Positions 9,862-28,836 of a stretch of 64,000 bases of DNA are shown here, in pieces. How positions within the stretch are numbered: position 1 is the first letter of the stretch; every line of letters begins with the position of its first letter. The stretch comes from a virus. The position numbers and the translations under genes are program-made. The notes below the pieces were generated by a model. That model was not told where the DNA came from and did no database searches. It worked only from the letters and a program-made list of their open reading frames with translations. Location: IMG/VR virus record IMGVR_UViG_3300025101_002824, positions 50,085 through 114,084 of that record. The stretch is one strand, 5' to 3'.

Positions 9862-12800
9862 ATGGAATCAAATTGTAATAAAAAAGATACTACTATACAA
9901 AAAATCCAGACTGAACGTGGATTTGCTGATGAGATATTTAAAAAATATAGATATGAAAGATATGGTGTAGGTACTTGTTGTGGTTCCAATCTTCCTTCTT
10001 ATATAAAAGATAAATACCTTTGTGATTTTCAAGATTCTAAAGTTACACAATATGATTCTATAAAAACTGTAGTAACAAAATATGATCCTCCAGCAACTGG
10101 TGCTAAAGATGATGCTAATAGACCTGGATGGGTTGATGCAGCTTGTGGTATGGCACAAGGTGATATAGAAGTTTATTTTTATTATGATGCAACATCATTA
10201 GGTTTAACACAAGTACAAGCTGCTTATAATGCAGCTAAAGATTGGATTGAAGTAGTAAAAGCTGAAGCAAATCAACCAGGAGATCCTGATTCATGTAATG
10301 GCGGCATAAGTGCAAGTGTAAAAGATTATCATACAACAGTATTTGGAGAAAGATGGCTTGATTGGGCTACATCATCAATGACTGGTATGTTTCAAAATTC
10401 AGGAAGTTGTGGTGGTAATGCTACTATAGATGTAAATGGTGTTCCATGTGCATCAAACAGTGCTGTAACAGGAACACCTGTAAATGTTGATGCAAATCCT
10501 AACAGAAACTTTGGTACTAACGATTGTAATAGTGCTGCAGATTCAGTATTTCCATGGTCTGTAAATAATACTAATAAATTTTGGGCTATATTAAAATGGG
10601 CTCAAAGTAATGGTGTAATTATGCATAATGGTGGACCGGCAGGTGTTGATGTAACAGCATCAGTATTACCTGTAGCTCAAGGAGGTAACGGAGGAACTGA
10701 TACTAGTGGTGGAGTTTTTGCTGGTGTTACTTCAATAGGTATGCCTCCTATTGCAAGCAAACAAAACTTATTAGTTGTAACATTTTTAGATGAAGCTACT
10801 TCAACCACTCATCATCAACCATATCATGGTAAAGGTGATCCAGCAACTTGGAATAATGCTACAGATGGATCAGGAACTGTAACTCCTTGTTGGGCAGCAG
10901 ATCATACACAATTCATTCAAACAAGAAATATTTGGATGGCTGGAATGGCAGATAGAAAATCTGATTTTTATATGTATCCATCTGCACCATCTAATCCTGG
11001 ACCAGCACATCATCCTTTACCATTACATGTATTAGGAGCTATTACATCAGGTGATAAAACTCCAGCTGATGGTACATTAACTACAGCACCATTTAATACA
11101 TTAGGACCATTAACACCAATTCAAACATCTAATCCATATTTTGCTCAAGGATATGGTGCATTAGATCAACATGGATGGGGAACAAATGTATTTGAAGGAG
11201 TATTTCAAGCTGAAACTTTTCAAAATGATTTAGATGCATTTGTAGATTTAGAAAATTGTAATGACTCAGAATGTTTTCTATTTGTTGTAAAAGACCAAAA
11301 TGGTAATCCTATTAGTTGTCATCCAATAACAATAAATGGTGGCGTTGTTGGAGAAACAAATGAAAATGGATTTTTAAGATGGTGTGTAAATAATGCATCA
11401 GTTAACACAAGACACATATTAGATTTATGTACATGTTTAACTACTACAGGTGGATGTAAATCTCAAAAGGTTTCTATGACCATAACAGATAAATGTAAAT
11501 TTACTGCATGTGATGTAACACCTTTTCAAGCATGTGAAGAACCAGCTGAAACAACATCTTCTGGTAATTTATTAAAAGGTTGTACTGATCCTAATGCAGA
11601 TAATTATAATCCAAACGCAACTGTAGATGATGGATCATGTAAGTTTTGTGAATCTTTTACTATAACAACAGGAAGTATAGGTGATGCTACAGAAAATAAT
11701 GACACTCCTCCTGTATGTCAAAATGATGGTTTTATAAATATTATAGTAGCAGGAGGAACGCCACCATATACATTCCAATGGACTGGACCAAGTGGATATA
11801 CAGCAACTACACAAAATATAACAGGTATATGTGGAGGTGTATATAATGTTTTTGTTACAGATAGTGCTACTAATCCATGTACAGAAGCTGCATCTTTCTT
11901 TATTGATCAACCACAATCAAGAATTTATGGTTGTATGGATGCTACTGCTTGTAATTATAATTCTTCTGCTACACATAGTGATAATTCATGTTTATTCTCT
12001 GGTTGTACTGATTCTTCTGCAACTAATTATGATCCTACTGCAACAGCAGATTGTAATTGTAATCCACCATCATCTCCTTTGTATCAAAATGATGTAGGTT
12101 GGGATAGCTGTTGTACAGCATGTGTAGATGGATGTATGGATCCAAATGCAAACAATTTTAATTCTGCTGCTACTTGTGATGATGGTTCCTGTACATATAA
12201 TTATTCATGTATTCAAACAGGAAGTCCTGGATTTAATAGTTGTGATGGATATACAAATATAGGTACATTTTCAAATTCATCTCAAGCTTTAAACTTTTAT
12301 ACTGATCCAGCAAATGGATTTACACATTTACCAATAAATTCTATTGTGCATTCATTAACTGGTGTTGCACCTCAACCAGGACAATGTGTTGATGCAAATG
12401 GTAATATAATAAAATTTAATGGCGGAATATTCTTTACTATGAGTGATATAGCTGGTACATCATGTCCTCATGATGATTGGCCTCTTTCATGGACAGCTGC
12501 TGGTTTACTTCCAGATGCAAATAGTACTACACAAAGAACATTTATTACAGAAAGTTGGGATGATGTTTTAAATTATCTTCAAGATACACTTGCTCAAGGT
12601 CAACAGTATGTTGATTGGTCAAATAGTTTTATAACTTCATTTAATAGTTTAACATATCAAGATATAGCTACTATTCTTCAAGCATCACAAGGTACATTAT
12701 ACACTGGACCAGGTCAACCTGCATTACAGAATCTTCTTTATCCTGAATGTCAATATAGAAGAATTTTACCATCATCTGCTGCTGGTCCATGTACTTGTCT

Positions 12801-15210
12801 TGGAACAACTCAAACATGTACTTGTACTGAAATGACAGATGGTACAGGTATTTATCCAACTATACAAGATTGTCAAAATAGTCCAACAGAATGCTGTAAT
12901 ACAAGTATAGGACCTAAATTTGTTTGTGTACCAGGAAATATAACAAATAGTTGTAGTAATAAAACATTAGCATCACCTAATGTTATTAGCCTTACTCCTA
13001 ATTTAAATGATAATTTAGCTCAAGAATGGACATCTTCAAATATTTATTGGCCTGTAGTTCCTGTAGATGGATTCTATTTTAAAATAGATAATAATGCAGG
13101 AGGTAGTTGTTTTGCATTAATAAATGAAGCGCAAGCTTATATAACAAAACTTTCAGTTGATTTTGATGATCCACAACCTGTAATACAACCACAATCATAT
13201 ACTATACAAACTGGTGGTGACTCATGGGCAATAGTTCAAAATGCTCTATTTAATGCTGGTTATAATGGTACTACATATCCTGATTTATCAAACGCTGATT
13301 GGAATACTGCTAAAATAATAACTGCTCAAAGTCAACCAGGAGCTTGGTCATTTAGAGCTTTTATGTCTTTATGTAATTGTACTAATGATGGTAATTGTGA
13401 TTGTATTGAAGATCAAACAGGACAGTATAATGATTATGCAAGCTGTATTCAAGATTGTTGTGATAGTCAATTAACATATGGTTGTACTGATCCAAACGCA
13501 ATAAACTATGATCCTAATGTTCAAATTGATGATTCTACATGTTTATACTGTGATGATTTAAATGCTCAAGGTGTACCAACACCTATTCATGATGCTACTT
13601 TTACTGATTATGTAGATCCTACACCTTCTAATGCATCAAACGGTTCAGTATTAGTTAATTTTGCTGTATCAGTAAATACAGGTACTAATTTAAATGTTTT
13701 AGTATATGATTCTCAAGCTAATCTTGTTCAAACTAATTTAATTCCTGGTGGTGCTACAAGTTATCTTATTACAGGATTACCAACAGACAATTATACAATA
13801 GTTTTAGAATGGATAAAGACTGTTGGAGGAAGTACAATAATCATGTGTTCAGAAAATTATTCAATATTTATTGGAAATCCAGGTGGAGCATTATTATGGG
13901 AATGTGTACCAAATTATGGTAATCCTACAATAGATGTAATGAGTCCTCCTTTGGCTGGATATAATATTGCAGCACAACCAAATTCAACTTTATATAATGC
14001 ACAAGGTGCTTATACACAAGTAGGAGCTACACCTTATTTAACTGTTGCAGCAAGAGATTGGACAAAAAATCCTGATTCTTATGGTTTACCTTTAAGTTTA
14101 AGACAACCATGGGGTTATCAAATTGATGGTCCATTTGGCTCAGCTGATTGTGTAGATAATCTATCAGGAGGTATACAATTTGCAATTGTTAAATTTGATA
14201 TATCAGATAGTAGTTTTAATACTTTATTTGAAATGACTACTACAAATAACAATACATGGAATGATTTAACAAGTTTTGTATCAGGTTTAGTTAACAATCC
14301 AGGTTTAGTAAATGCAAATTATGAAGATATTGAAATTGCACTTGCTGCTGCTGGAAATGGTGATACTATTACAGTTTCAGCACAAAAACCAATAAATTGT
14401 GGAGATTGTGAGTGTATAGAAACACATAGTGGTATATATACAACAGAAGCTGCTTGTAACTCAGCATGTTGTATATCAGGTTGTACAGATCCAGCTGCTG
14501 ATAACTACAATCCAAATGCAAATTTAGAAAATGGATCATGTGTTTATTGTAGTGGATTTGATGCATTATTAAGTAATGCAGATCCTACAATTCCAACTGG
14601 AAATAGCGGAAGTTGGAATGCAGGAAATATTAATGTAAACAATGGGCAGATATTAGCATCAGGTATAGGTGGTTCTGGTCAATATGCTGTTAATGTTTAT
14701 TATGAAGGTTATAATGGAAATGCAGAAGTAAATCCAATATCATTATATCCAGGATTTTATAAAGTAGTACTATTTGATATAGTTACTCAATGTACTAGAA
14801 TAAAGTTTACGCAATTAGAACCATTAAGTGATAAGTGTCGTACAACTGGTACTCCATGGTATCCTACTGCAGCAAGTTCATTTAGTGCAAGTGGACAATG
14901 GAATGAGCTGACTAGTAAAATGGGTGCAGGTAATCTTTCAGTTAATCCTAATGCACATCCTAATACCAACGTTTGGCCAAGATCTTTATCTAGTATTTAT
15001 GTAACAAATTTAAATCATACAGGTGGAGCAACTTATACAGTAAGACTTTATAATAATGCTACTGGTGCAAATGTTGTAACTTTACCAAATGTATCTGGTT
15101 TAGTACAAATAAATGCTTTAGTACAAGGAACATCATATACACTTGAAGTTAGTAATGGCACAGGTGCCTGTGATTTAATTGGACATGTGTTTACATTTGA
15201 TGCTTTATAA
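9862..15210 (+). CDS. Giant Cys-rich fibre/adhesin with SprB-type and GCTDP repeats
   Basis: This 1782 aa protein is a probable receptor-binding or surface fibre. The first 450 residues form a distinct globular region; its segment around DIEVYFYYDATSLG and VVTFLDEAT loosely resembles a von Willebrand A fold. Six copies of a Cys-bounded repeat of the form GC(T/M)D..A.NY(D/N)P.A...GSC start near residues 573, 690, 714, 757, 1207 and 1540. Between the first two lies a SprB-like repeat (about residues 594-686, with GGTPPYTFQWTGPSGY and GVYNVFVTD). Both elements are typical of secreted Bacteroidetes adhesins and gliding proteins. There is no signal peptide, as expected for a phage structural protein. 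The repeats probably came from, or imitate, host surface proteins. Confidence 0.7.
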   Translation: MESNCNKKDTTIQKIQTERGFADEIFKKYRYERYGVGTCCGSNLPSYIKDKYLCDFQDSKVTQYDSIKTVVTKYDPPATGAKDDANRPGWVDAACGMAQGDIEVYFYYDATSLGLTQVQAAYNAAKDWIEVVKAEANQPGDPDSCNGGISASVKDYHTTVFGERWLDWATSSMTGMFQNSGSCGGNATIDVNGVPCASNSAVTGTPVNVDANPNRNFGTNDCNSAADSVFPWSVNNTNKFWAILKWAQSNGVIMHNGGPAGVDVTASVLPVAQGGNGGTDTSGGVFAGVTSIGMPPIASKQNLLVVTFLDEATSTTHHQPYHGKGDPATWNNATDGSGTVTPCWAADHTQFIQTRNIWMAGMADRKSDFYMYPSAPSNPGPAHHPLPLHVLGAITSGDKTPADGTLTTAPFNTLGPLTPIQTSNPYFAQGYGALDQHGWGTNVFEGVFQAETFQNDLDAFVDLENCNDSECFLFVVKDQNGNPISCHPITINGGVVGETNENGFLRWCVNNASVNTRHILDLCTCLTTTGGCKSQKVSMTITDKCKFTACDVTPFQACEEPAETTSSGNLLKGCTDPNADNYNPNATVDDGSCKFCESFTITTGSIGDATENNDTPPVCQNDGFINIIVAGGTPPYTFQWTGPSGYTATTQNITGICGGVYNVFVTDSATNPCTEAASFFIDQPQSRIYGCMDATACNYNSSATHSDNSCLFSGCTDSSATNYDPTATADCNCNPPSSPLYQNDVGWDSCCTACVDGCMDPNANNFNSAATCDDGSCTYNYSCIQTGSPGFNSCDGYTNIGTFSNSSQALNFYTDPANGFTHLPINSIVHSLTGVAPQPGQCVDANGNIIKFNGGIFFTMSDIAGTSCPHDDWPLSWTAAGLLPDANSTTQRTFITESWDDVLNYLQDTLAQGQQYVDWSNSFITSFNSLTYQDIATILQASQGTLYTGPGQPALQNLLYPECQYRRILPSSAAGPCTCLGTTQTCTCTEMTDGTGIYPTIQDCQNSPTECCNTSIGPKFVCVPGNITNSCSNKTLASPNVISLTPNLNDNLAQEWTSSNIYWPVVPVDGFYFKIDNNAGGSCFALINEAQAYITKLSVDFDDPQPVIQPQSYTIQTGGDSWAIVQNALFNAGYNGTTYPDLSNADWNTAKIITAQSQPGAWSFRAFMSLCNCTNDGNCDCIEDQTGQYNDYASCIQDCCDSQLTYGCTDPNAINYDPNVQIDDSTCLYCDDLNAQGVPTPIHDATFTDYVDPTPSNASNGSVLVNFAVSVNTGTNLNVLVYDSQANLVQTNLIPGGATSYLITGLPTDNYTIVLEWIKTVGGSTIIMCSENYSIFIGNPGGALLWECVPNYGNPTIDVMSPPLAGYNIAAQPNSTLYNAQGAYTQVGATPYLTVAARDWTKNPDSYGLPLSLRQPWGYQIDGPFGSADCVDNLSGGIQFAIVKFDISDSSFNTLFEMTTTNNNTWNDLTSFVSGLVNNPGLVNANYEDIEIALAAAGNGDTITVSAQKPINCGDCECIETHSGIYTTEAACNSACCISGCTDPAADNYNPNANLENGSCVYCSGFDALLSNADPTIPTGNSGSWNAGNINVNNGQILASGIGGSGQYAVNVYYEGYNGNAEVNPISLYPGFYKVVLFDIVTQCTRIKFTQLEPLSDKCRTTGTPWYPTAASSFSASGQWNELTSKMGAGNLSVNPNAHPNTNVWPRSLSSIYVTNLNHTGGATYTVRLYNNATGANVVTLPNVSGLVQINALVQGTSYTLEVSNGTGACDLIGHVFTFDAL

Positions 15211-20415: not shown

Positions 20416-23400
20416 ATGGCTAAAAAGCAGCAAAAAAATACAGGTGGGAAAAAAACTCCTAAACGTCAAAATACTGACATAGTAAATACTAATGCCTTTA
20501 TTAAAGGTATGAATAAAGATACTGATAGTGGATATTTTGATAAACAAAGTTGGTATCATGCACGTAATTTAATAAATAATTCTGTTGATGGTGATTTAGG
20601 TGTAGTTGGTAATGAACCAGCAAATTTAAGATGTGCAAAGATTCCTTATACTGTTATAGGAGGTATTCATTTATATGGAGACCAGTGGGTAATATACTCA
20701 ACTAATGATATATTAAGTGAAATAGGTTTATTTGACGACAGTGAATGTAAATACACTACATTAGTAAATGATGATTGTCTTAATTTTAATAAAGATAATT
20801 TAATTATAGGAGCTGCTAAAGAAAATTTTGATTGCACATGGCAAGTATATTGGGATGATGGTTTAAATCCATCCAGAACATTAAATATTGATAATATACC
20901 ATATGTGCAAATAGTTGATCCAAATACACCAGCTGGATCTACATGTATAAATTATATTAATGCTGAACCATTAATGTTAGATTGTGAAAGAATTAGATTA
21001 GCTCCATTAATTGATATACCATGTATTAAATTAGAAAAAGCAGATCAAGGAGGATTATTAGAAAATGGTAGTTATCAAGTATATGCAGCATATTGTATAA
21101 ATGAAAAACCTGTTACAGATTATTTAGGTATTTCAAATATACAACCAATTTGGTCAAGAGAAGATACACAAGGATCACTTACAATAGAACTTTCTAATTT
21201 AGATACTGAATTTGATCAATTACAAATTGTTGTTAGATCTAGAATAAAAGGTCAAGCTACTAATACAGTATTAGGTTTATATAGCACAGAAACAAAATCA
21301 ATAAATATTGATTATATAAATGCTGAATTACCAAAAGTATTATCAAGCACATTACAAAGAAGAATTCCTACATATGAAAAATCTGAAGGAATGTTTGTTG
21401 TTAATGATTATTTAATAAGATCACAACCTACAGAACAATTTGATTTTAACTATCAACCTTTAGCTAATAATATCCAAACATACTGGACTTCTACACAATA
21501 TCCTTCTAATTATTATAGAGAAGGTGGTAACAAACCTACACTATTAAGAGATGAGCAATATGCTTTTTTTATAAGATTTATATATAATACAGGAGAAAAA
21601 TCAGCATCATATCATATACCTGGACGTGCTCCAACAGCTGCTGATGAATTACCTATTGGAGGTGCTGGTAATAATTTTGATAACTCACCAACATGGAGAG
21701 CAGGTAATACTGCATCTTCTCAACCTGGAAATCCTTTTGTAGCTTCATTACTTGGAACTAATACAGATGATGGTGGAACTATTATTGATGGAGGTCTAAT
21801 GGGATTTTGGGAATCTACAGAAGTTTATTCACCTACTGACCCAACTAGATATGGTAATCTTTGTGGTCAACCTATAAGACATCATAAAATTCCTGATGAA
21901 ACTGTTCCTGGTATAGGGACTACATTAACAGGAGCTGGTGAAACCATTCATGTTATAGGTGCTGCTTTTGATAATATAGCACCTCCTGTTGATAATGATG
22001 GTAATGTAATACCTAACATTATTGGATATGAAATATTAGTAGGTAGCCGAGCAGGTAATAGATCTATACTTGCTAAAGGTATTATGAAACACATGTTTAG
22101 GTTTAGAAGAACTCAAAATGATGGTATACGTAATGCTCAAGGATCACCAGATAATTTTGCTTCAGGAACAGGTTTAATGCCTAATTATCCTTTTAATGAT
22201 TTAAGAGCAGATCCTTATTTAATTGGTAGAGATAGTAATAGTATTAGCCAATTGCCTTGGTATGCACAATTTGGAACAGCACCAGAAGAAAATTGGCACA
22301 GAGGAAATACAAATCAAGCTGATGGTTTAGAATTTAATACTGTTGATGCACGGACATTTACTTTTCATTCACCAGAATTAAATTTCTCTAGATTATATTT
22401 AAATCCAACTACAGTAAAAATTTATAAAACAGTAAGTGGAATTGTTTTAGGAAGATTTAAAAAATCAGAAGAACATCCTAGAATGAAGTTATTAAAAAAT
22501 AGAGCAGCAACTGTAGCAGCATTAGTTGGTGTAGGTTATGCTTTAGCAGAAATGCGTGGTAAAAGAAATTATAAGATTGATACCATGCAATCTACGTCTA
22601 TTGGTGAATTTGGTGCACATGCTTTAGGATCTGGTTCACATATGTCACCTTTTGTTGGTCCTGGTACAGGACTTGCTGCTGCAAATGTAGGTGCATCATC
22701 AGCAAGTATTTGGCTTGGAGCTGCAGCAGATGTAGGTTTTAATACTTTAGTTGATATAGGCGCTATATTTGGTGCTGGTAAAGTAGTTCGTCAAGTAGGT
22801 ACACCTATTTATCAACAAGTTGAAGTTGCGTCTACAGCTGCAGCAGCTGGACATATTGGTCCAAAAAGATCTATTCAATATATGGGTAGTGATTTTTCTT
22901 CTATTCCTTCATTAATGTCTATTGCAATAGGTATTATTTCATTTTTAAATTATGTTGCAGTTGGTGGTGATAAAATTATTGATTTAATATTGAATCTTAT
23001 AGGGTTTCAAAACTATGCAATGAAATATATATCTCATGGATATTATCAAAATGAAACTCCATTTTTAGGTACACAATTTAGACAATCTGTAGATAGAGCA
23101 AGATATATTAAAAGTGCTATACAATCATTTGATGGTCAAGATGTAATATACAATAACCTTAGACCTTCTACTGTTGTATTTAAAGTGGCTAATCCATGGG
23201 GAGATTCTTTACCAGGAATTAATGGAGGGCCTATTGATAACACTAAATTTACAATTGGTGCAGGAGCAAATGGATGTGCAGGTAATGGTAATAATAGTAT
23301 GAGTTGGTATAATCCAGGAGAGGAAGTAGAATCAACTGCAGTTGCACATTATATGTCATTTAAAACTTTAATGGATAATCAATATGGTCAGTTAGATAGT

Positions 23401-26400
23401 ATTATTCAACTTACTACACAAAATTGTTTTTATTTTAGAACACAACAAAATGTTGATCCTGATGGTAATATTCTTCCAATAATTTCACAAGATAGATTTA
23501 GTACTGATACAGTATATGCGGGTGATTCATATATATGTAGATATACAGAAAAATCAATTATGCCATTCTTCTTTGACTTTTTAAAAGAAGGAAGAGATGG
23601 TATACCATTTGATTATTCTAAATATGCAAATGTACCATTTCCTAGATTTTGGATGAATTCAGAAAAATTCCGTATGGATCAATTTGTAAGACCAATAACA
23701 AGTTTAAGGTTTAGATGGAATGGAACTGAAGCTTTACCTTCTGGGTATTATAATATGGATTGTCCAGAAAATGGTGGTTATTGTGCACCTCAAGGTGTTT
23801 TTCAACCAGGTACAATTGGTACAGGATTAGGTGCAAATTTTGGTGAAGGAGGAGCTGCTGGTTCAACACAACAAGATGGATCTTCTGCTGGTTCTGGTGC
23901 TATAAATCAAAATCAAACTGGTTTTACACAAAGTTCAGCTGTAGGTGGTGCAGCTTGGGATGATCCTAATGATGATTGGAATCTAGAAAACAGTATGGCA
24001 GCATATAATAATAGGTTTCAAGTTATAAATATTAGTGGTAATGGTAATGGAGGTTCAGATATACCATATAATATTAACATGGGTAGTAATAGTGAAAGAT
24101 GGTCAATAATTGGAGCAGGACAAGATGTTATAACAATAACACCTGCAGCTGGTGTACTAAATCCAGTCCCTACAAATCCAGCAAATCCGCCTGGACCAGC
24201 TTTAGCTGCAGCCGTAGAAACTACACCTAATTTTAATATAACCATAGAAGATCATAGTTACAGTGTACCTTTAGATTCTCCTGGTAATGGACCTTCTATT
24301 ACTAAACAATGTGGTTGTGATTTTGTTAGTTTTGTTAGAGAAGATACAGATGATAGTACATTTACTCCTAGTTTATTTAGTGATTTTGGAACAGCAACAG
24401 CAAGATTAATTTGGGATTGGTCATCTGGTACATTTATAGGTATGACAAATGTAGCAACTGGTTTTTATGCTTCTAATGACCCTACAATAACTGCAGGTGG
24501 TACAGGAAATCCAAGTGATGTTTTAACAAGTTCTGCAAATTTTACATTTCAAAGTGGACTTCTGACTAATCAAGTACAAGATGGTTTTCCATTTGTTTGT
24601 AACAATACAGCAATAATGGGTCAAGGTGCATTTCAATTTCCTAATGCTCAAGCTACTCCAGGAGGTGCTAATGATATAAGTGCTGCTAATCAAAGAAATG
24701 GTGTACAAGCTGGTGGACCAGGTGATCCTCAAGCTCTTGCTGATAATGCCGAACAAGCAGCACAAGATTCAGTATTTGTAACAGGTAATCAACCAGGAGC
24801 TGTAGGTGCTGGTGGTACTGCTACTGGGGGATTATTTGTAATTAAAACAGGATATATGTATACCCATAATTGCGGTATAAATGATTTCTGGGTTGAATCT
24901 TCAATGAATCTAGCTTATAGAGATTATGAAGATGTAGCAAGAAAACAACATTATGATGATGAAAATTTTACTGATCTTGTAGAATTATTTCATGCTAAAA
25001 TTGTAAATTTAGATAATTATTATTTTTATGATAGATCAACATCAGTTGATAAATTTTGGGGTTCATCATGGGGACGTATACAACCAAGTTATTATGATCC
25101 ATTAATTGCAGAAAACTGTTTTATTAAATATCCAAAAAGATTATTATACTCAGTTCCAGCTACAGGATTTAAAGATAAAGCAACGCTTTCAAATAAAAAT
25201 GATGCAAAACAAGATTTTTGGAGAGTGTATCTTACAGAAAACTTTAGAGATTTTAAAGCAAAAGTTACAACAATAAAACCTATTAATGAGACAGGAGCTT
25301 TAATATTCTTTCCAACAATGTCTCCTAAAATGTTCCAAGGACAAGATAGATTACAACTATCTAATACAAAACTTACAATTGGTGATGGAGGATTATTTAG
25401 TCAAGCTTTTCAAAATATAACAAACTCTGATGTATCACACGAGTATGGATCATGTGAAAGTGCAAGAAGTGTATTAAATACTCCTTTTGGTATTTTCTTT
25501 GTATCTCAAGCACAAGGTAAGATTTTTCAATATAGACCAGGTGGTGGTTTAACACCAATATCAGATCAAGGTATGAAATGGTGGATGAATAAATTTTTAC
25601 CATCTAAGCTATTAGAATACTTTCCTTTAATAGAAGATTGTCCTGAAGCAGTAGACAATCCTGTAAATGGTGCAGGTATACAAACTGTATATGATCCTAA
25701 TAATGACATAGTATATTTCTGTAAAAAAGATTTTATACCATTACCGCAATTTCAAGATAATGATTGTATAGAATATATACCTTGTGAAGGTTTTGTTTAT
25801 AATGCAACAAATTGTGAAGGTTTACCACAAGTACCTTCATGTCCTGAAGGATATACATTAATACAAGATCCTGTAACAGGGCAAGATGTTTGTCAATTAT
25901 TATATACTGAAGAACCAATTATATTAGCTACAGAACAATTTAATTATGGTGCAGGTATTGCTATTGGTACTGACTTAGGATTTGGTAATAATGGAACAGC
26001 AAGATATGGTGTAGATTGGCCTATTGTAATTGATGATGTATTTACTGATGGAATGCCTACTAACCAAGCTGATCCAAATACATGGCATTATATAACAGAT
26101 AATGGATCAAATGCATGGTGGAGAAATGCAAATCCAACTAATGGAACAAATGGTATTATTAACAGATTAATGAGAGGAGCTGCTGGTACACCAGGGGGAC
26201 AATTTGCACAAGCAGAATTTCAAATTAATATTCCTACTGCTAAAACTGTACATATTTTATTAGCAGCTGATAATGCGTTTGCATTAGATTTAGATACTGG
26301 AACAGGATATACAAATTTTGTAACACCTGTTGATGCAACTATATTTGGTGCTGTAACTCAGGGTGGTGGTATATGGAATCCTCAAGCAGTTCCAGGAGGA

Positions 26401-28836
26401 AATTTTGCATGGTTATCAGGTGATGCAGTTGATGCATCTCAATATTCAAAAGCTTGGATATATAAATTAGATTTACCATCAGGATGTACAAAATTTAGAA
26501 TGACAGGTACTAACAATGGTGCTGGTTTTGCAGGTCTTGCTGCTGCTGTTATTGATGTTAATGATTATCAAGATATACAAGATGCTACATCATGGGAATC
26601 TTTACCTAAATTATGGGATTCTGAAACTTATGATTTTATTGTTCCTGGAACTACTACTGATTTTAGATGTCCTCCAAACTTTACAATATTTACTGACGGT
26701 ACAGATGGTAGTACAGAAGAGTGTCCAGTATGTAGAGAAGATATAATAATATATAATTGTGATTGTATGACAGATCCAACATCTAATATACCAGGTGTAT
26801 TAATAGGAACATGTCCAGATGCATTTGGTAATGCTGGATCATCTTATTGTCAATACGAAGGATATGCTGATGTTGAAATGATTGATCAAACTTATCCTAT
26901 AGAAGTATTAGATACTAATTACTTTAAAGATATATCTTGGACTATTAGTTATGATCCAAAAACTAAAGCATGGTTATCTTTCCATGATTGGCATCCTAAG
27001 TTAGCATTTAATAGTATAAGACATTTCTTAACTACTAATACTGAAATGACAGAAGTTCCTCAATGTCCAGATGGATATACATGGAATGGTACAAGATGTT
27101 GTTTATCATTACATCATGAAGAGTTAGCAGAAGTTAATGTAACTGAATTTTTATCTACAGTTGAAAGTACACCAGCAACTGTACAAGCATTTTCTGAAAC
27201 AATGGATATTGTTATTGTAATAGATTTTTCAACATCTATGAGAAACAATGGTGGAATTGGAGCAGCAATGCAATTTGTATCAACATTTGTAAGCGGTATG
27301 GCTCCAGGTATGTTAGGAGGTCCATATGCAGGTCAAGTAAGAATAGGACATGGTAGATGGGGTAGTGGTTCTGCATCTGCGTCTCCTCCAGGAGATCCTG
27401 CACAAATAGTAGGTTTAACTGATGATCCAGCTATAGCTGGTGGAAGTCTTACTGCTACTAATACTCCAATAGGTCAAACACAATATTGGCCACAAAGTGG
27501 AACAACCTTTAATGATGGTATAGATCTTGCTAATACTATGCTTACAGGAAGTACAGCTCAACAAAAAATTGTTATATTTGTTACTGATGCAGGTAGTGCT
27601 CCAAATAATCCAACAAATTTAGCAAATGCTACACAATTAATAGCATTATTTGTTGATAATGCAACTAGTGCAAATAATTGTAGTACTACTACTGGTTATG
27701 GTGATGATCTTGGACCTTTAATTACAGATACAGGTTTACCATCAAATCCGGCATATGATGTTGTAAGATGCGCAAATGTTGGAACTCTTCCAAGAAACGT
27801 ATATCATATAGGGTCAGGTATTGATCCTGGTGAAGAAGGACATGCAGCTTCAGTTGCACAAGATTTAGTTCAATCTTTTACACAATGTACATGTACACAA
27901 GGAATAATTGATACAAGTCCTCTTAATCCTCCATGTTTACCTTTACCATCACCTCCACCACAATGTATAACTTGTTCTTGTCCTCCAGGATTTACTTTAA
28001 TTGGTACTTGTGATAATTCACAAAATCCACCAATATGTAGAAAAATGGATTGTGAATGTACAAGTCCTTTATTTAATCCAGATGAAGACTTAACAATAAG
28101 TGGAGAATGTGATGATATTGTACAATATTTTAATCCATTAACTGGAACAGGTAATCCAACTTATGTAAATACTAATCCTTTATTTTGTATATATGATTAT
28201 GAAGATTGTGTACCTGCTAATTATGAATTAGGATTCTTTTGGAAACATAATATTAGAACTGATTTATTTAATAATTATTATGATAAAAATTATCCTTGGG
28301 AAGTAGATATAATTGAAACTACTGGTCAGCAAGTTACTACATTAAGAAGTATAGAATATCAAATGGAAGCTTATTTATATCAAAATGAAGGTAAAGATAG
28401 ATTCCATGATTTAGATTATAATTTTGATGAAGCTGTTATTTATAATTCAGAACAAGTATCAGGATTATTAGAATTAGAATTAGAACCAAAAAATAATGTT
28501 CAATTGTCAATGTTATATCCTATTGTTGGACCTAACAGTATAAGAACATTGTTTAGTAAAGTTGAACAAAAATATAGATTTAATCAATTTTTTGATATTA
28601 CTGCTGACAGAGGAGAGTTTACAGCAGCAACTAATACAATTTGGGAAACAGATTGGGATGGATATGTTAGAACATTAAACCCAGCTAATTTAAATTATAA
28701 TAAAGCACAACATCAAAGAAAGAAATTTAGACATTACTTTAATCATGTGCTATTAAGAAAATCAGATGAAGCTGCTACAACTAGAAAGATGTTATTAAAA
28801 TTAGAGAATACTAAATTAAATGTATCATTTAGATAA
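20416..28836 (+). CDS. Giant muzzle/stabilisation-type tail protein with VWA domain
   Basis: This 2806 aa protein probably forms the end of the tail barrel. The N-terminus (VNTNAFIKGMNKDTDSGYFD, followed by many beta strands) is typical of the crAss-like tail protein related to phage stabilisation proteins. A hydrophobic section lies near residues 695-860, with two potential membrane-spanning helices. A von Willebrand A domain is inserted at about residues 2258-2450: D2270-F-S2272-T-S2274 with T2363/T2364 and D2391 forms a complete MIDAS metal site. Four Cys motifs of type CP..(F/Y)T occur at C1809, C2085, C2217 and C2522. The protein is about twice the length known for this role; the extra length is mostly Gly/Asn-rich linkers and these domains. 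The stop overlaps the next start. Confidence 0.7.
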   Translation: MAKKQQKNTGGKKTPKRQNTDIVNTNAFIKGMNKDTDSGYFDKQSWYHARNLINNSVDGDLGVVGNEPANLRCAKIPYTVIGGIHLYGDQWVIYSTNDILSEIGLFDDSECKYTTLVNDDCLNFNKDNLIIGAAKENFDCTWQVYWDDGLNPSRTLNIDNIPYVQIVDPNTPAGSTCINYINAEPLMLDCERIRLAPLIDIPCIKLEKADQGGLLENGSYQVYAAYCINEKPVTDYLGISNIQPIWSREDTQGSLTIELSNLDTEFDQLQIVVRSRIKGQATNTVLGLYSTETKSINIDYINAELPKVLSSTLQRRIPTYEKSEGMFVVNDYLIRSQPTEQFDFNYQPLANNIQTYWTSTQYPSNYYREGGNKPTLLRDEQYAFFIRFIYNTGEKSASYHIPGRAPTAADELPIGGAGNNFDNSPTWRAGNTASSQPGNPFVASLLGTNTDDGGTIIDGGLMGFWESTEVYSPTDPTRYGNLCGQPIRHHKIPDETVPGIGTTLTGAGETIHVIGAAFDNIAPPVDNDGNVIPNIIGYEILVGSRAGNRSILAKGIMKHMFRFRRTQNDGIRNAQGSPDNFASGTGLMPNYPFNDLRADPYLIGRDSNSISQLPWYAQFGTAPEENWHRGNTNQADGLEFNTVDARTFTFHSPELNFSRLYLNPTTVKIYKTVSGIVLGRFKKSEEHPRMKLLKNRAATVAALVGVGYALAEMRGKRNYKIDTMQSTSIGEFGAHALGSGSHMSPFVGPGTGLAAANVGASSASIWLGAAADVGFNTLVDIGAIFGAGKVVRQVGTPIYQQVEVASTAAAAGHIGPKRSIQYMGSDFSSIPSLMSIAIGIISFLNYVAVGGDKIIDLILNLIGFQNYAMKYISHGYYQNETPFLGTQFRQSVDRARYIKSAIQSFDGQDVIYNNLRPSTVVFKVANPWGDSLPGINGGPIDNTKFTIGAGANGCAGNGNNSMSWYNPGEEVESTAVAHYMSFKTLMDNQYGQLDSIIQLTTQNCFYFRTQQNVDPDGNILPIISQDRFSTDTVYAGDSYICRYTEKSIMPFFFDFLKEGRDGIPFDYSKYANVPFPRFWMNSEKFRMDQFVRPITSLRFRWNGTEALPSGYYNMDCPENGGYCAPQGVFQPGTIGTGLGANFGEGGAAGSTQQDGSSAGSGAINQNQTGFTQSSAVGGAAWDDPNDDWNLENSMAAYNNRFQVINISGNGNGGSDIPYNINMGSNSERWSIIGAGQDVITITPAAGVLNPVPTNPANPPGPALAAAVETTPNFNITIEDHSYSVPLDSPGNGPSITKQCGCDFVSFVREDTDDSTFTPSLFSDFGTATARLIWDWSSGTFIGMTNVATGFYASNDPTITAGGTGNPSDVLTSSANFTFQSGLLTNQVQDGFPFVCNNTAIMGQGAFQFPNAQATPGGANDISAANQRNGVQAGGPGDPQALADNAEQAAQDSVFVTGNQPGAVGAGGTATGGLFVIKTGYMYTHNCGINDFWVESSMNLAYRDYEDVARKQHYDDENFTDLVELFHAKIVNLDNYYFYDRSTSVDKFWGSSWGRIQPSYYDPLIAENCFIKYPKRLLYSVPATGFKDKATLSNKNDAKQDFWRVYLTENFRDFKAKVTTIKPINETGALIFFPTMSPKMFQGQDRLQLSNTKLTIGDGGLFSQAFQNITNSDVSHEYGSCESARSVLNTPFGIFFVSQAQGKIFQYRPGGGLTPISDQGMKWWMNKFLPSKLLEYFPLIEDCPEAVDNPVNGAGIQTVYDPNNDIVYFCKKDFIPLPQFQDNDCIEYIPCEGFVYNATNCEGLPQVPSCPEGYTLIQDPVTGQDVCQLLYTEEPIILATEQFNYGAGIAIGTDLGFGNNGTARYGVDWPIVIDDVFTDGMPTNQADPNTWHYITDNGSNAWWRNANPTNGTNGIINRLMRGAAGTPGGQFAQAEFQINIPTAKTVHILLAADNAFALDLDTGTGYTNFVTPVDATIFGAVTQGGGIWNPQAVPGGNFAWLSGDAVDASQYSKAWIYKLDLPSGCTKFRMTGTNNGAGFAGLAAAVIDVNDYQDIQDATSWESLPKLWDSETYDFIVPGTTTDFRCPPNFTIFTDGTDGSTEECPVCREDIIIYNCDCMTDPTSNIPGVLIGTCPDAFGNAGSSYCQYEGYADVEMIDQTYPIEVLDTNYFKDISWTISYDPKTKAWLSFHDWHPKLAFNSIRHFLTTNTEMTEVPQCPDGYTWNGTRCCLSLHHEELAEVNVTEFLSTVESTPATVQAFSETMDIVIVIDFSTSMRNNGGIGAAMQFVSTFVSGMAPGMLGGPYAGQVRIGHGRWGSGSASASPPGDPAQIVGLTDDPAIAGGSLTATNTPIGQTQYWPQSGTTFNDGIDLANTMLTGSTAQQKIVIFVTDAGSAPNNPTNLANATQLIALFVDNATSANNCSTTTGYGDDLGPLITDTGLPSNPAYDVVRCANVGTLPRNVYHIGSGIDPGEEGHAASVAQDLVQSFTQCTCTQGIIDTSPLNPPCLPLPSPPPQCITCSCPPGFTLIGTCDNSQNPPICRKMDCECTSPLFNPDEDLTISGECDDIVQYFNPLTGTGNPTYVNTNPLFCIYDYEDCVPANYELGFFWKHNIRTDLFNNYYDKNYPWEVDIIETTGQQVTTLRSIEYQMEAYLYQNEGKDRFHDLDYNFDEAVIYNSEQVSGLLELELEPKNNVQLSMLYPIVGPNSIRTLFSKVEQKYRFNQFFDITADRGEFTAATNTIWETDWDGYVRTLNPANLNYNKAQHQRKKFRHYFNHVLLRKSDEAATTRKMLLKLENTKLNVSFR

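Follow-up and report, generated by a model that had tools for sequence, protein, structure and literature searches.

A VWA domain with a complete MIDAS motif fills a propeller turn of a crAss-like phage muzzle protein and is probably a host-surface binding module

A gene for a Crassvirales muzzle protein, located in a 64-kb stretch (hereafter the window) of the 114-kb IMG/VR virus record IMGVR_UViG_3300025101_002824, carries a von Willebrand factor type A (VWA) domain with a complete metal ion-dependent adhesion site (MIDAS). The domain fills socket B, one of two variable positions that we call sockets A and B. Muzzle proteins are thought to be gatekeepers, with the crass domain as the likely host contact (PMC10172136, PMC10136315). 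From sequence comparison, we consider it probable that this VWA domain serves as an interchangeable module for binding the host surface, placed in a propeller turn of the gatekeeper. The features that carry this reading are listed below; L006 and L007 are the two closest relatives of the window.

20416..28836, + strand: Crassvirales muzzle gene, 2806 amino acids (Pfam crAss_MUZ PF25731; PHROG 37948, 5e-34)
27169..27894, + strand: VWA domain, residues 2252-2493 (Pfam, AlphaFold2, Foldseek, VIA-align, profile against PDB sequences)
27223..27237, + strand: MIDAS motif 1, D2270-F-S2272-T-S2274 (D, S and S invariant in L006 and L007)
27502..27504, + strand: MIDAS Thr, T2363 (invariant in L006 and L007)
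27586..27588, + strand: MIDAS Asp, D2391 (invariant in L006 and L007)

Profile and gene place identify the open reading frame (ORF) at 20416-28836 as a Crassvirales muzzle gene. The crAss_MUZ family (PF25731) matches residues 24-286 in three stretches (1e-28; 100.5 bits against a cut-off of 27), the portal and major head protein of the window match crAss-type PHROG families, and the portal and capsid families lie upstream of the muzzle gene. The protein is about twice as long as gp44 of phage crAss001 (2806 vs 1371 amino acids). An earlier note on this DNA had placed a VWA domain in the muzzle at 27170-27880; it is confirmed, in the correct frame, at 27169-27894. When the whole protein is searched, Pfam VWA_2 aligns with residues 2265-2392 (5.3e-4; 21 bits, under the cut-off of 27) and Pfam VWA with residues 2264-2405 (0.052, under cut-off), and in the search of the window record VWA_2 reaches 4.7e-7 and 29.6 bits against the cut-off of 27, passing only together with neighbouring stretches in frame. 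Among 45 records searched, VWA_2 exceeds its cut-off in two, the window and L007 (27.1 bits), and stays silent in the L006 record though the domain is present there. Of the scans of viral contigs with VWA alignments, one yielded no relative and the others L006 and L007 only, and tblastn of the window VWA against 50,697 phage records gave no match. A bacterial donor was not found, because two scans of genome contigs returned no VWA relative. The insert DNA was not found in L009 and L010, records of the window's own population that probably stop short of it. With the entire muzzle as query, phmmer gave 0 matches among PDB sequences, and Pfam matched no pilin or Cna-type domain across the whole protein.

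D2270 (27223-27225), S2272 (27229-27231), S2274 (27235-27237), T2363 and D2391 are all kept in L006 and L007 despite a domain identity of 42-44% with the window, while the blades are 93-97% identical. The earlier note had proposed a full MIDAS with T2363/T2364; the D-x-S-x-S motif, T2363 and D2391 stand in their canonical places and are invariant, while T2364 falls outside the conserved site. The latter residue is Asn in both relatives, and therefore T2363 alone is likely the MIDAS Thr. The D-x-S-x-S, T and D set is found at strand ends as in other MIDAS sites, the co-location of the five residues being judged from the order of secondary structure elements.

An AlphaFold2 model of the domain built from five sequences (predicted TM-score, pTM, 0.62; mean predicted local distance difference test, pLDDT, 49.4) gave the Rossmann-like strand and helix order on which the earlier note had made its VWA assignment depend. 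By DSSP, in local numbering, a strand (12-19) is followed by a helix (29-48), two strands (57-64 and 79-84) and two helices (87-95 and 112-126), and the C-terminal half adds strands 134-140, 159-163 and 211-215 and a last helix at 223-239. The model thus shows the alternating beta/alpha order with a central sheet and a last helix that characterizes the VWA family. The MIDAS residues (local 19, 21, 23, 112 and 140) are arranged accordingly, with D/S/S after strand 12-19, T starting helix 112-126 and D ending strand 134-140. For a longer stretch of 656 residues, the pLDDT was 32.8. The top Foldseek match is the VWA domain of Mfa5 (E 0.012, probability 0.99), with none of 201 matches at E < 0.001; the best 50 of these 201 are all molecules that, judging by their titles, contain VWA or I-like domains. 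VIA-align gives Z scores of 8.6 for the INTS13-INTS14 complex, 8.3 for Mfa5 (129 residues, 2.9 A) and 8.3 for PilB, where a Z of about 7-8 is common for models by the tool's own caution. A comparison that does not use the model, in which the five sequences serve as a profile against PDB sequences, ranks PitA first (8e-4), then Mfa5 (0.01), SpaC (0.013/0.014) and collagen VI (0.03); two proteins annotated as cell wall surface anchors follow (0.046).

The nearest VWA structures are thus bacterial pilus-tip adhesins, at or near the top of both the profile and the fold rankings. With Mfa5 of Porphyromonas gingivalis, PitA, SpaC and PilB, the window domain shares the VWA fold order and the D-x-S-x-S, T and D residues. 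In Mfa5, the MIDAS consists of D150, S152, S154, T224 and D252 with Mg2+, and a loop of a second domain receives the VWA domain (PMC7835359). Mfa5 and the muzzle have in common both the spacing of 28 residues between T and D and the insertion of the VWA domain into a host-domain loop. Nonetheless, the window VWA is not a pilus-tip adhesin: it sits on a phage tail, identity is about 20%, and an isopeptide immunoglobulin-like partner or ARM subdomain is not seen. One could suppose that the domain mimics a pilus tip, since its nearest relatives are such tips, and that it binds and covers an appendage of the host or, once the cell has lysed, blocks competing phages; nothing positive speaks for such an anti-host or superinfection role, which we hold to be barely plausible.

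The positions of the two sockets were defined by profiles of three conserved blocks, built from the muzzles of the window, Lbo-JY46, phi17:2, csAssE-Sib, Fpv1 and FpV4: b1 (ending at the KKD[YF] strand), b2 (SWTxSY) and b3 (WxHN to near the end). Socket A is the interval between b1 and b2 and socket B that between b2 and b3. In the window, they hold 392 and 399 residues, respectively.

25735..26910, + strand: socket A filling, residues 1774-2165 (392 amino acids), a Cys-rich CPxGYT adaptor and a beta-rich module (anchor hidden Markov models)
26911..27039, + strand: conserved propeller block b2, residues 2166-2208, which separates sockets A and B (anchor hidden Markov model, 2e-19)
27040..28236, + strand: socket B filling, residues 2209-2607 (399 amino acids), a Cys-rich pre-linker, the VWA domain and a Cys-rich post-linker (nearly all relatives with an unfilled socket have 1-12 residues here)
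27895..28236, + strand: Cys-rich linker 3' of the VWA domain, residues 2494-2607, with a CPPGFTLIGTC adaptor (sequence comparison)
28237..28833, + strand: C-terminal propeller blades, residues 2608-2806 (93-96% identity in L006 and L007)

In crAss001 gp44, both sockets are tight turns, YFTYKD/HCLCY near residue 1199 for A and YAFK-DG-KMW near 1234 for B, the latter a turn of two residues. The sockets belong to the propeller, because these equivalents fall after the IG2 domain of gp44, which ends at 1021 (PMC10172136). Insertions and length variation of muzzles have been described in the crass and IG2 regions (PMC10172136). Hence, the insertion into a tail-tip muzzle proposed in the earlier note stands, while the distal placement does not: the domain occupies a turn of the gate-bearing beta-propeller and not the distal crass/IG2 part. 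The last 199 residues of gp44 match 54 phage records, and the 40 that are listed each align as a single piece of at most 651 bases spanning both sockets, so that none of these 40 holds a large insert. A Cys motif, C-x-x-G-[YFW]..C, recurs at many module junctions (window positions 1809 in A, 2217 and 2522 in B).

Rates of change differ strongly along the muzzle. Pairwise Nei-Gojobori ratios of nonsynonymous to synonymous change (dN/dS) among the window, L007 and L006 are 0.74-0.85 for the VWA domain, 0.33-0.44 for the Cys-rich linker that follows and 0.43-0.56 for the socket A filling, against 0.05-0.09 for the C-terminal blades and 0.08-0.10 for blades 4-5. An invariant metal site on a surface that varies, next to a scaffold that hardly changes, is the pattern expected of a host-binding module. 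These rates also bear on two other explanations. The first is a structural clamp, in which the MIDAS would take an acidic residue from an adjacent muzzle subunit, from the socket A module or from a tail fibre and lock the tail tip, thereby binding the virion rather than the host. MIDAS-bearing VWA domains commonly act in protein-protein assembly. In the window clade and its sister L103, moreover, a filled socket B goes with a filled socket A (4 of 92 muzzles, all four long at A), so that the modules in A and B might pair. An internal contact should be conserved, however, whereas the VWA domain changes much faster than the blades (dN/dS 0.74-0.85 vs 0.05-0.09), and a peptidase takes the same place in L103; the clamp therefore appears unlikely. 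The second is that the socket simply tolerates inserts and that the module is a harmless passenger. A dN/dS near 0.8 would fit this explanation, as would the finding that even a division of the chain between two genes is tolerated at the sockets (36 of 92 muzzles), but every one of the five MIDAS residues is retained, together with the Cys framework, at 42-44% identity, and the modules are recognisable binding or enzyme domains instead of random sequence. We deem a neutral passenger highly improbable. Apart from the sockets, the muzzle also changes fast at residues 1101-1500 (window 23716-24915; dN/dS 0.63-0.76), which may be the distal crass region or a further insert.

Occupancy of the sockets was surveyed with two scans. 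The first, with an alignment of FpV4 and phi17:2, collected 51 muzzle loci and is biased to filled A sockets, as one of its two patterns lies inside a module; the second, with a query 3' of both sockets, collected 80 loci. All three anchors were located in 59 of 60 sequences drawn from the first scan, the named phages, L069 and the window (L016 failed), and in 78 of 80 of the second (L141 and L142 failed). Removal of 15 duplicates by contig left 122 muzzles, or 92 at 97% identity, with L070 left out of the count. Both sockets are short in 42 of the 92. Socket A is long (>=100 amino acids) in 14 and broken into two genes in 10 (24 filled or broken), while socket B is long in four (window, L006, L007 and L103) and broken in 27 (31 filled or broken); five muzzles count in both classes, four being long at A and B and one (L140) broken at both. 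Where socket B is neither long nor split, it measures 1-12 amino acids in 60 of 61 non-redundant muzzles, the exception being L062 with 80. It is empty in Lbo-JY46, phi17:2, csAssE-Sib and crAss001. On a quick tree of the 92 muzzles, occupation changed at least eight times for A and two times for B.

The 36 muzzles split in two genes are divided at the socket turns: a module ends the first gene, and the second starts at a Met about 65-90 residues ahead of the next anchor. Splits at A occur in L027, L031, L035, L036, L038, L042, L048, L050 and L062, and splits at B in the L082-L155 group. A terminal frameshift or stop recoding is an unlikely cause for the 27 muzzles broken at B, because they form one clade in which the second gene starts at a like place. 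In the L085-L155 group, the muzzle tails past b2 contain, where the first gene ends, long Thr/Ser runs and repeated C-x-LEGxA motifs.

The search for the insertion in related muzzles, as the earlier note had proposed, showed that L006 and L007 hold the VWA domain and that other muzzles hold other modules at the same two sockets. For instance, L103 branches as sister to the window clade (SH-aLRT 99). Its muzzle is 41-50% identical to that of the window over the flanking blocks, and 44-50% in the blades, but its socket B filling of 658 residues contains a Reprolysin_3 match (26.2 bits against a cut-off of 22.4) with HEMGHVVGAYHSH and a Met-turn-like LMSYCH; no VWA domain was found in this filling. 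The reprolysin-like metallopeptidase insert lies at L103:2419-4392. In the next relatives after L103 (L087, L089 and L100), both sockets are empty. Socket A shows more kinds of modules. Identity among L031, L048 and L062 is 57-68% as far as about 75 residues beyond b1, where unrelated modules take over, namely PKD with a VWA-like end in L031, Fib_succ_major in L048 (6.6e-34) and DUF11 with DUF285 in L062 (2.7e-86), whereas the similarity of L031 to L036, L035 and L042 continues through a shared PKD stretch. L042 has a weak match to Lcl_C, a C-type-lectin-like family (6.1e-5, under cut-off). These muzzle end modules lie at L042:1986-3878 (Lcl_C, weak), L048:4835-5761 (Fib_succ_major) and L062:3339-5483 (DUF285 repeats). 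The socket A module of the window is homologous to those of L083 (blastp 1.5e-9) and L132 (4e-6), and L132 alone has a PA14 match (8.8e-4, under cut-off). L043 has a VWA match in socket A (3.4e-4, under cut-off), as does L069, which is 60% identical to it; tblastn of this socket against the phage records gave no match, and phmmer of the L043 VWA gave one, unrelated match. Finally, socket A measures 356 residues in FpV4 and 192 in Fpv1, while their C-terminal 266 residues are 73% identical.

Some candidates were set aside. The socket A modules of FpV4 (FDRSGS), L017 (LDTSGS) and phi17:2 (FDTTSM) resemble a VWA domain by motif, but Pfam gives nothing at 0.1, and when their profiles are compared with that of the window VWA or of L043, only 26-27 columns align (P 0.02-0.03; reversed controls 0.25-0.26). 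L031 (FDGSGSM) has the motif alone. None of these is counted as a proven VWA domain. Diversity-generating retroelements were discarded as a source of module diversity, as a reverse transcriptase occurs in one of 17 records, outside those with lectin-like modules, and none was found in the records of L042, L048 and L062. The one observed (RVT_1, 2.4e-18) is in L063, the record of the split-muzzle phage L038, distant from the muzzle.

Phage receptor-binding proteins are marked by the exchange of modules and by rapid change next to a conserved anchor, and the muzzle shows both traits. A host-surface role is favoured because of the fast change beside a frozen scaffold and the exchange of modules in the same sockets. 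The suggestion of the earlier note that the muzzle could itself be a receptor-binding element thus gains comparative support. In the mechanism that we propose, six VWA copies would stand out around the hexameric tail tip, each binding a protein or glycan of the host envelope, or a pilus or other appendage, through a divalent metal by analogy with pilus-tip VWA domains. Together with the socket A module, they would set host choice or provide a second-stage grip, so that the muzzle is held to the surface during gate opening, and the crass domain may work with both modules to hold or place the tail tip. The reprolysin-like module of L103 would fit the same host-envelope role, with cutting in place of binding. 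Several points weigh against this interpretation. The structural model is low in confidence; a dN/dS below 1 is also compatible with relaxed constraint, with three sequences compared; and exchange at socket B is seen in one phage, L103, because the two closest relatives of the window share its VWA module. Moreover, the order of strands suggests a b-c turn for A and, in the next blade, an a-b turn for B, in which case the two sockets may lie on opposite faces of the propeller, and the main receptor binders may be the tail fibres rather than the muzzle.

The location in the propeller also invites the idea of a force-activated latch or trigger, in which ligand binding at the MIDAS would, as in integrin I domains, displace the last helix and pull the blade and gate open. 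The propeller that carries the VWA domain in one of its turns also has the gate loop, in blade 4 (PMC10172136), and the C-terminal helix of the VWA domain (local 223-239) runs straight into the Cys-rich stalk leading back to the blade. The flexible Cys/Pro-rich linkers (43 and 114 amino acids) would make a poor lever, however, and the gate opens in most relatives without any module, which renders a latch very unlikely. A wider scheme, which we regard as doubtful, would unite sensor and valve: the muzzle would be a gatekeeper with two docking sockets that swap binders (VWA, lectin-like, PKD) and reprolysin-like enzymes, even by gene split, and in the window clade the VWA domain would pass a binding signal or pull to the gate.

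The probable host-surface module in the window muzzle is made of parts of known kinds; their placement and exchange at two propeller sockets were not found described. To our knowledge, no socket modules are known in T7-type nozzle proteins. One of the closest known counterparts, crAss001 gp44, shares the homologous propeller and the muzzle profile and is a gatekeeper at the tail tip (PMC10172136), but has a bare turn at both sockets. It combines a ring-joining domain with a seven-bladed propeller, as in T7-type nozzle proteins (PMC10172136). In the same phage order, crAss001 gp52 is a standalone VWA protein by its record annotation, which is small, separate and distant from the tail genes. Extracellular contractile injection systems carry VWA and PKD as exchangeable binding modules on the fibres of phage-like tails (PMC12923769), although the modules are on fibres of a different tail type there and on a gate protein here. 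Neither a VWA domain nor the two propeller sockets of crAss-like muzzles was found described in the accessible portions of the literature searched, subscription papers and preprints aside. If modules are swapped at two turns of the gatekeeper, host recognition by crAss-like phages would be partly built into the valve that opens. The sockets also offer exact boundaries for the removal or transplantation of modules in laboratory phages, and FpV4 and Fpv1, both grown on one Flavobacterium psychrophilum strain and differing at socket A, are a ready test pair.

Further observations concern neighbouring genes and named relatives. Lbo-JY46, a Leptolyngbya phage with a cyanobacterial host, has an unannotated muzzle gene (L002:7602-12566) and is among the closest named relatives of the window muzzle. 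In csAssE-Sib, a TROVE (Ro60-like) protein gene (L004:11422-13056) lies directly downstream of the muzzle gene. Another ORF of the window (9862-15210), which encodes an unassigned protein, contains, at 10756-11247 on the + strand, a domain homologous to the socket A muzzle modules of FpV4 and phi17:2. Comparison of the profiles gives a probability of 86 (P 4.9e-6, against 0.5 for the reversed control), and hmmsearch alone an E of 0.056. Modules may be exchanged between different virion proteins. The same ORF also carries the Cys repeats CTDPxAxNYNPxA.

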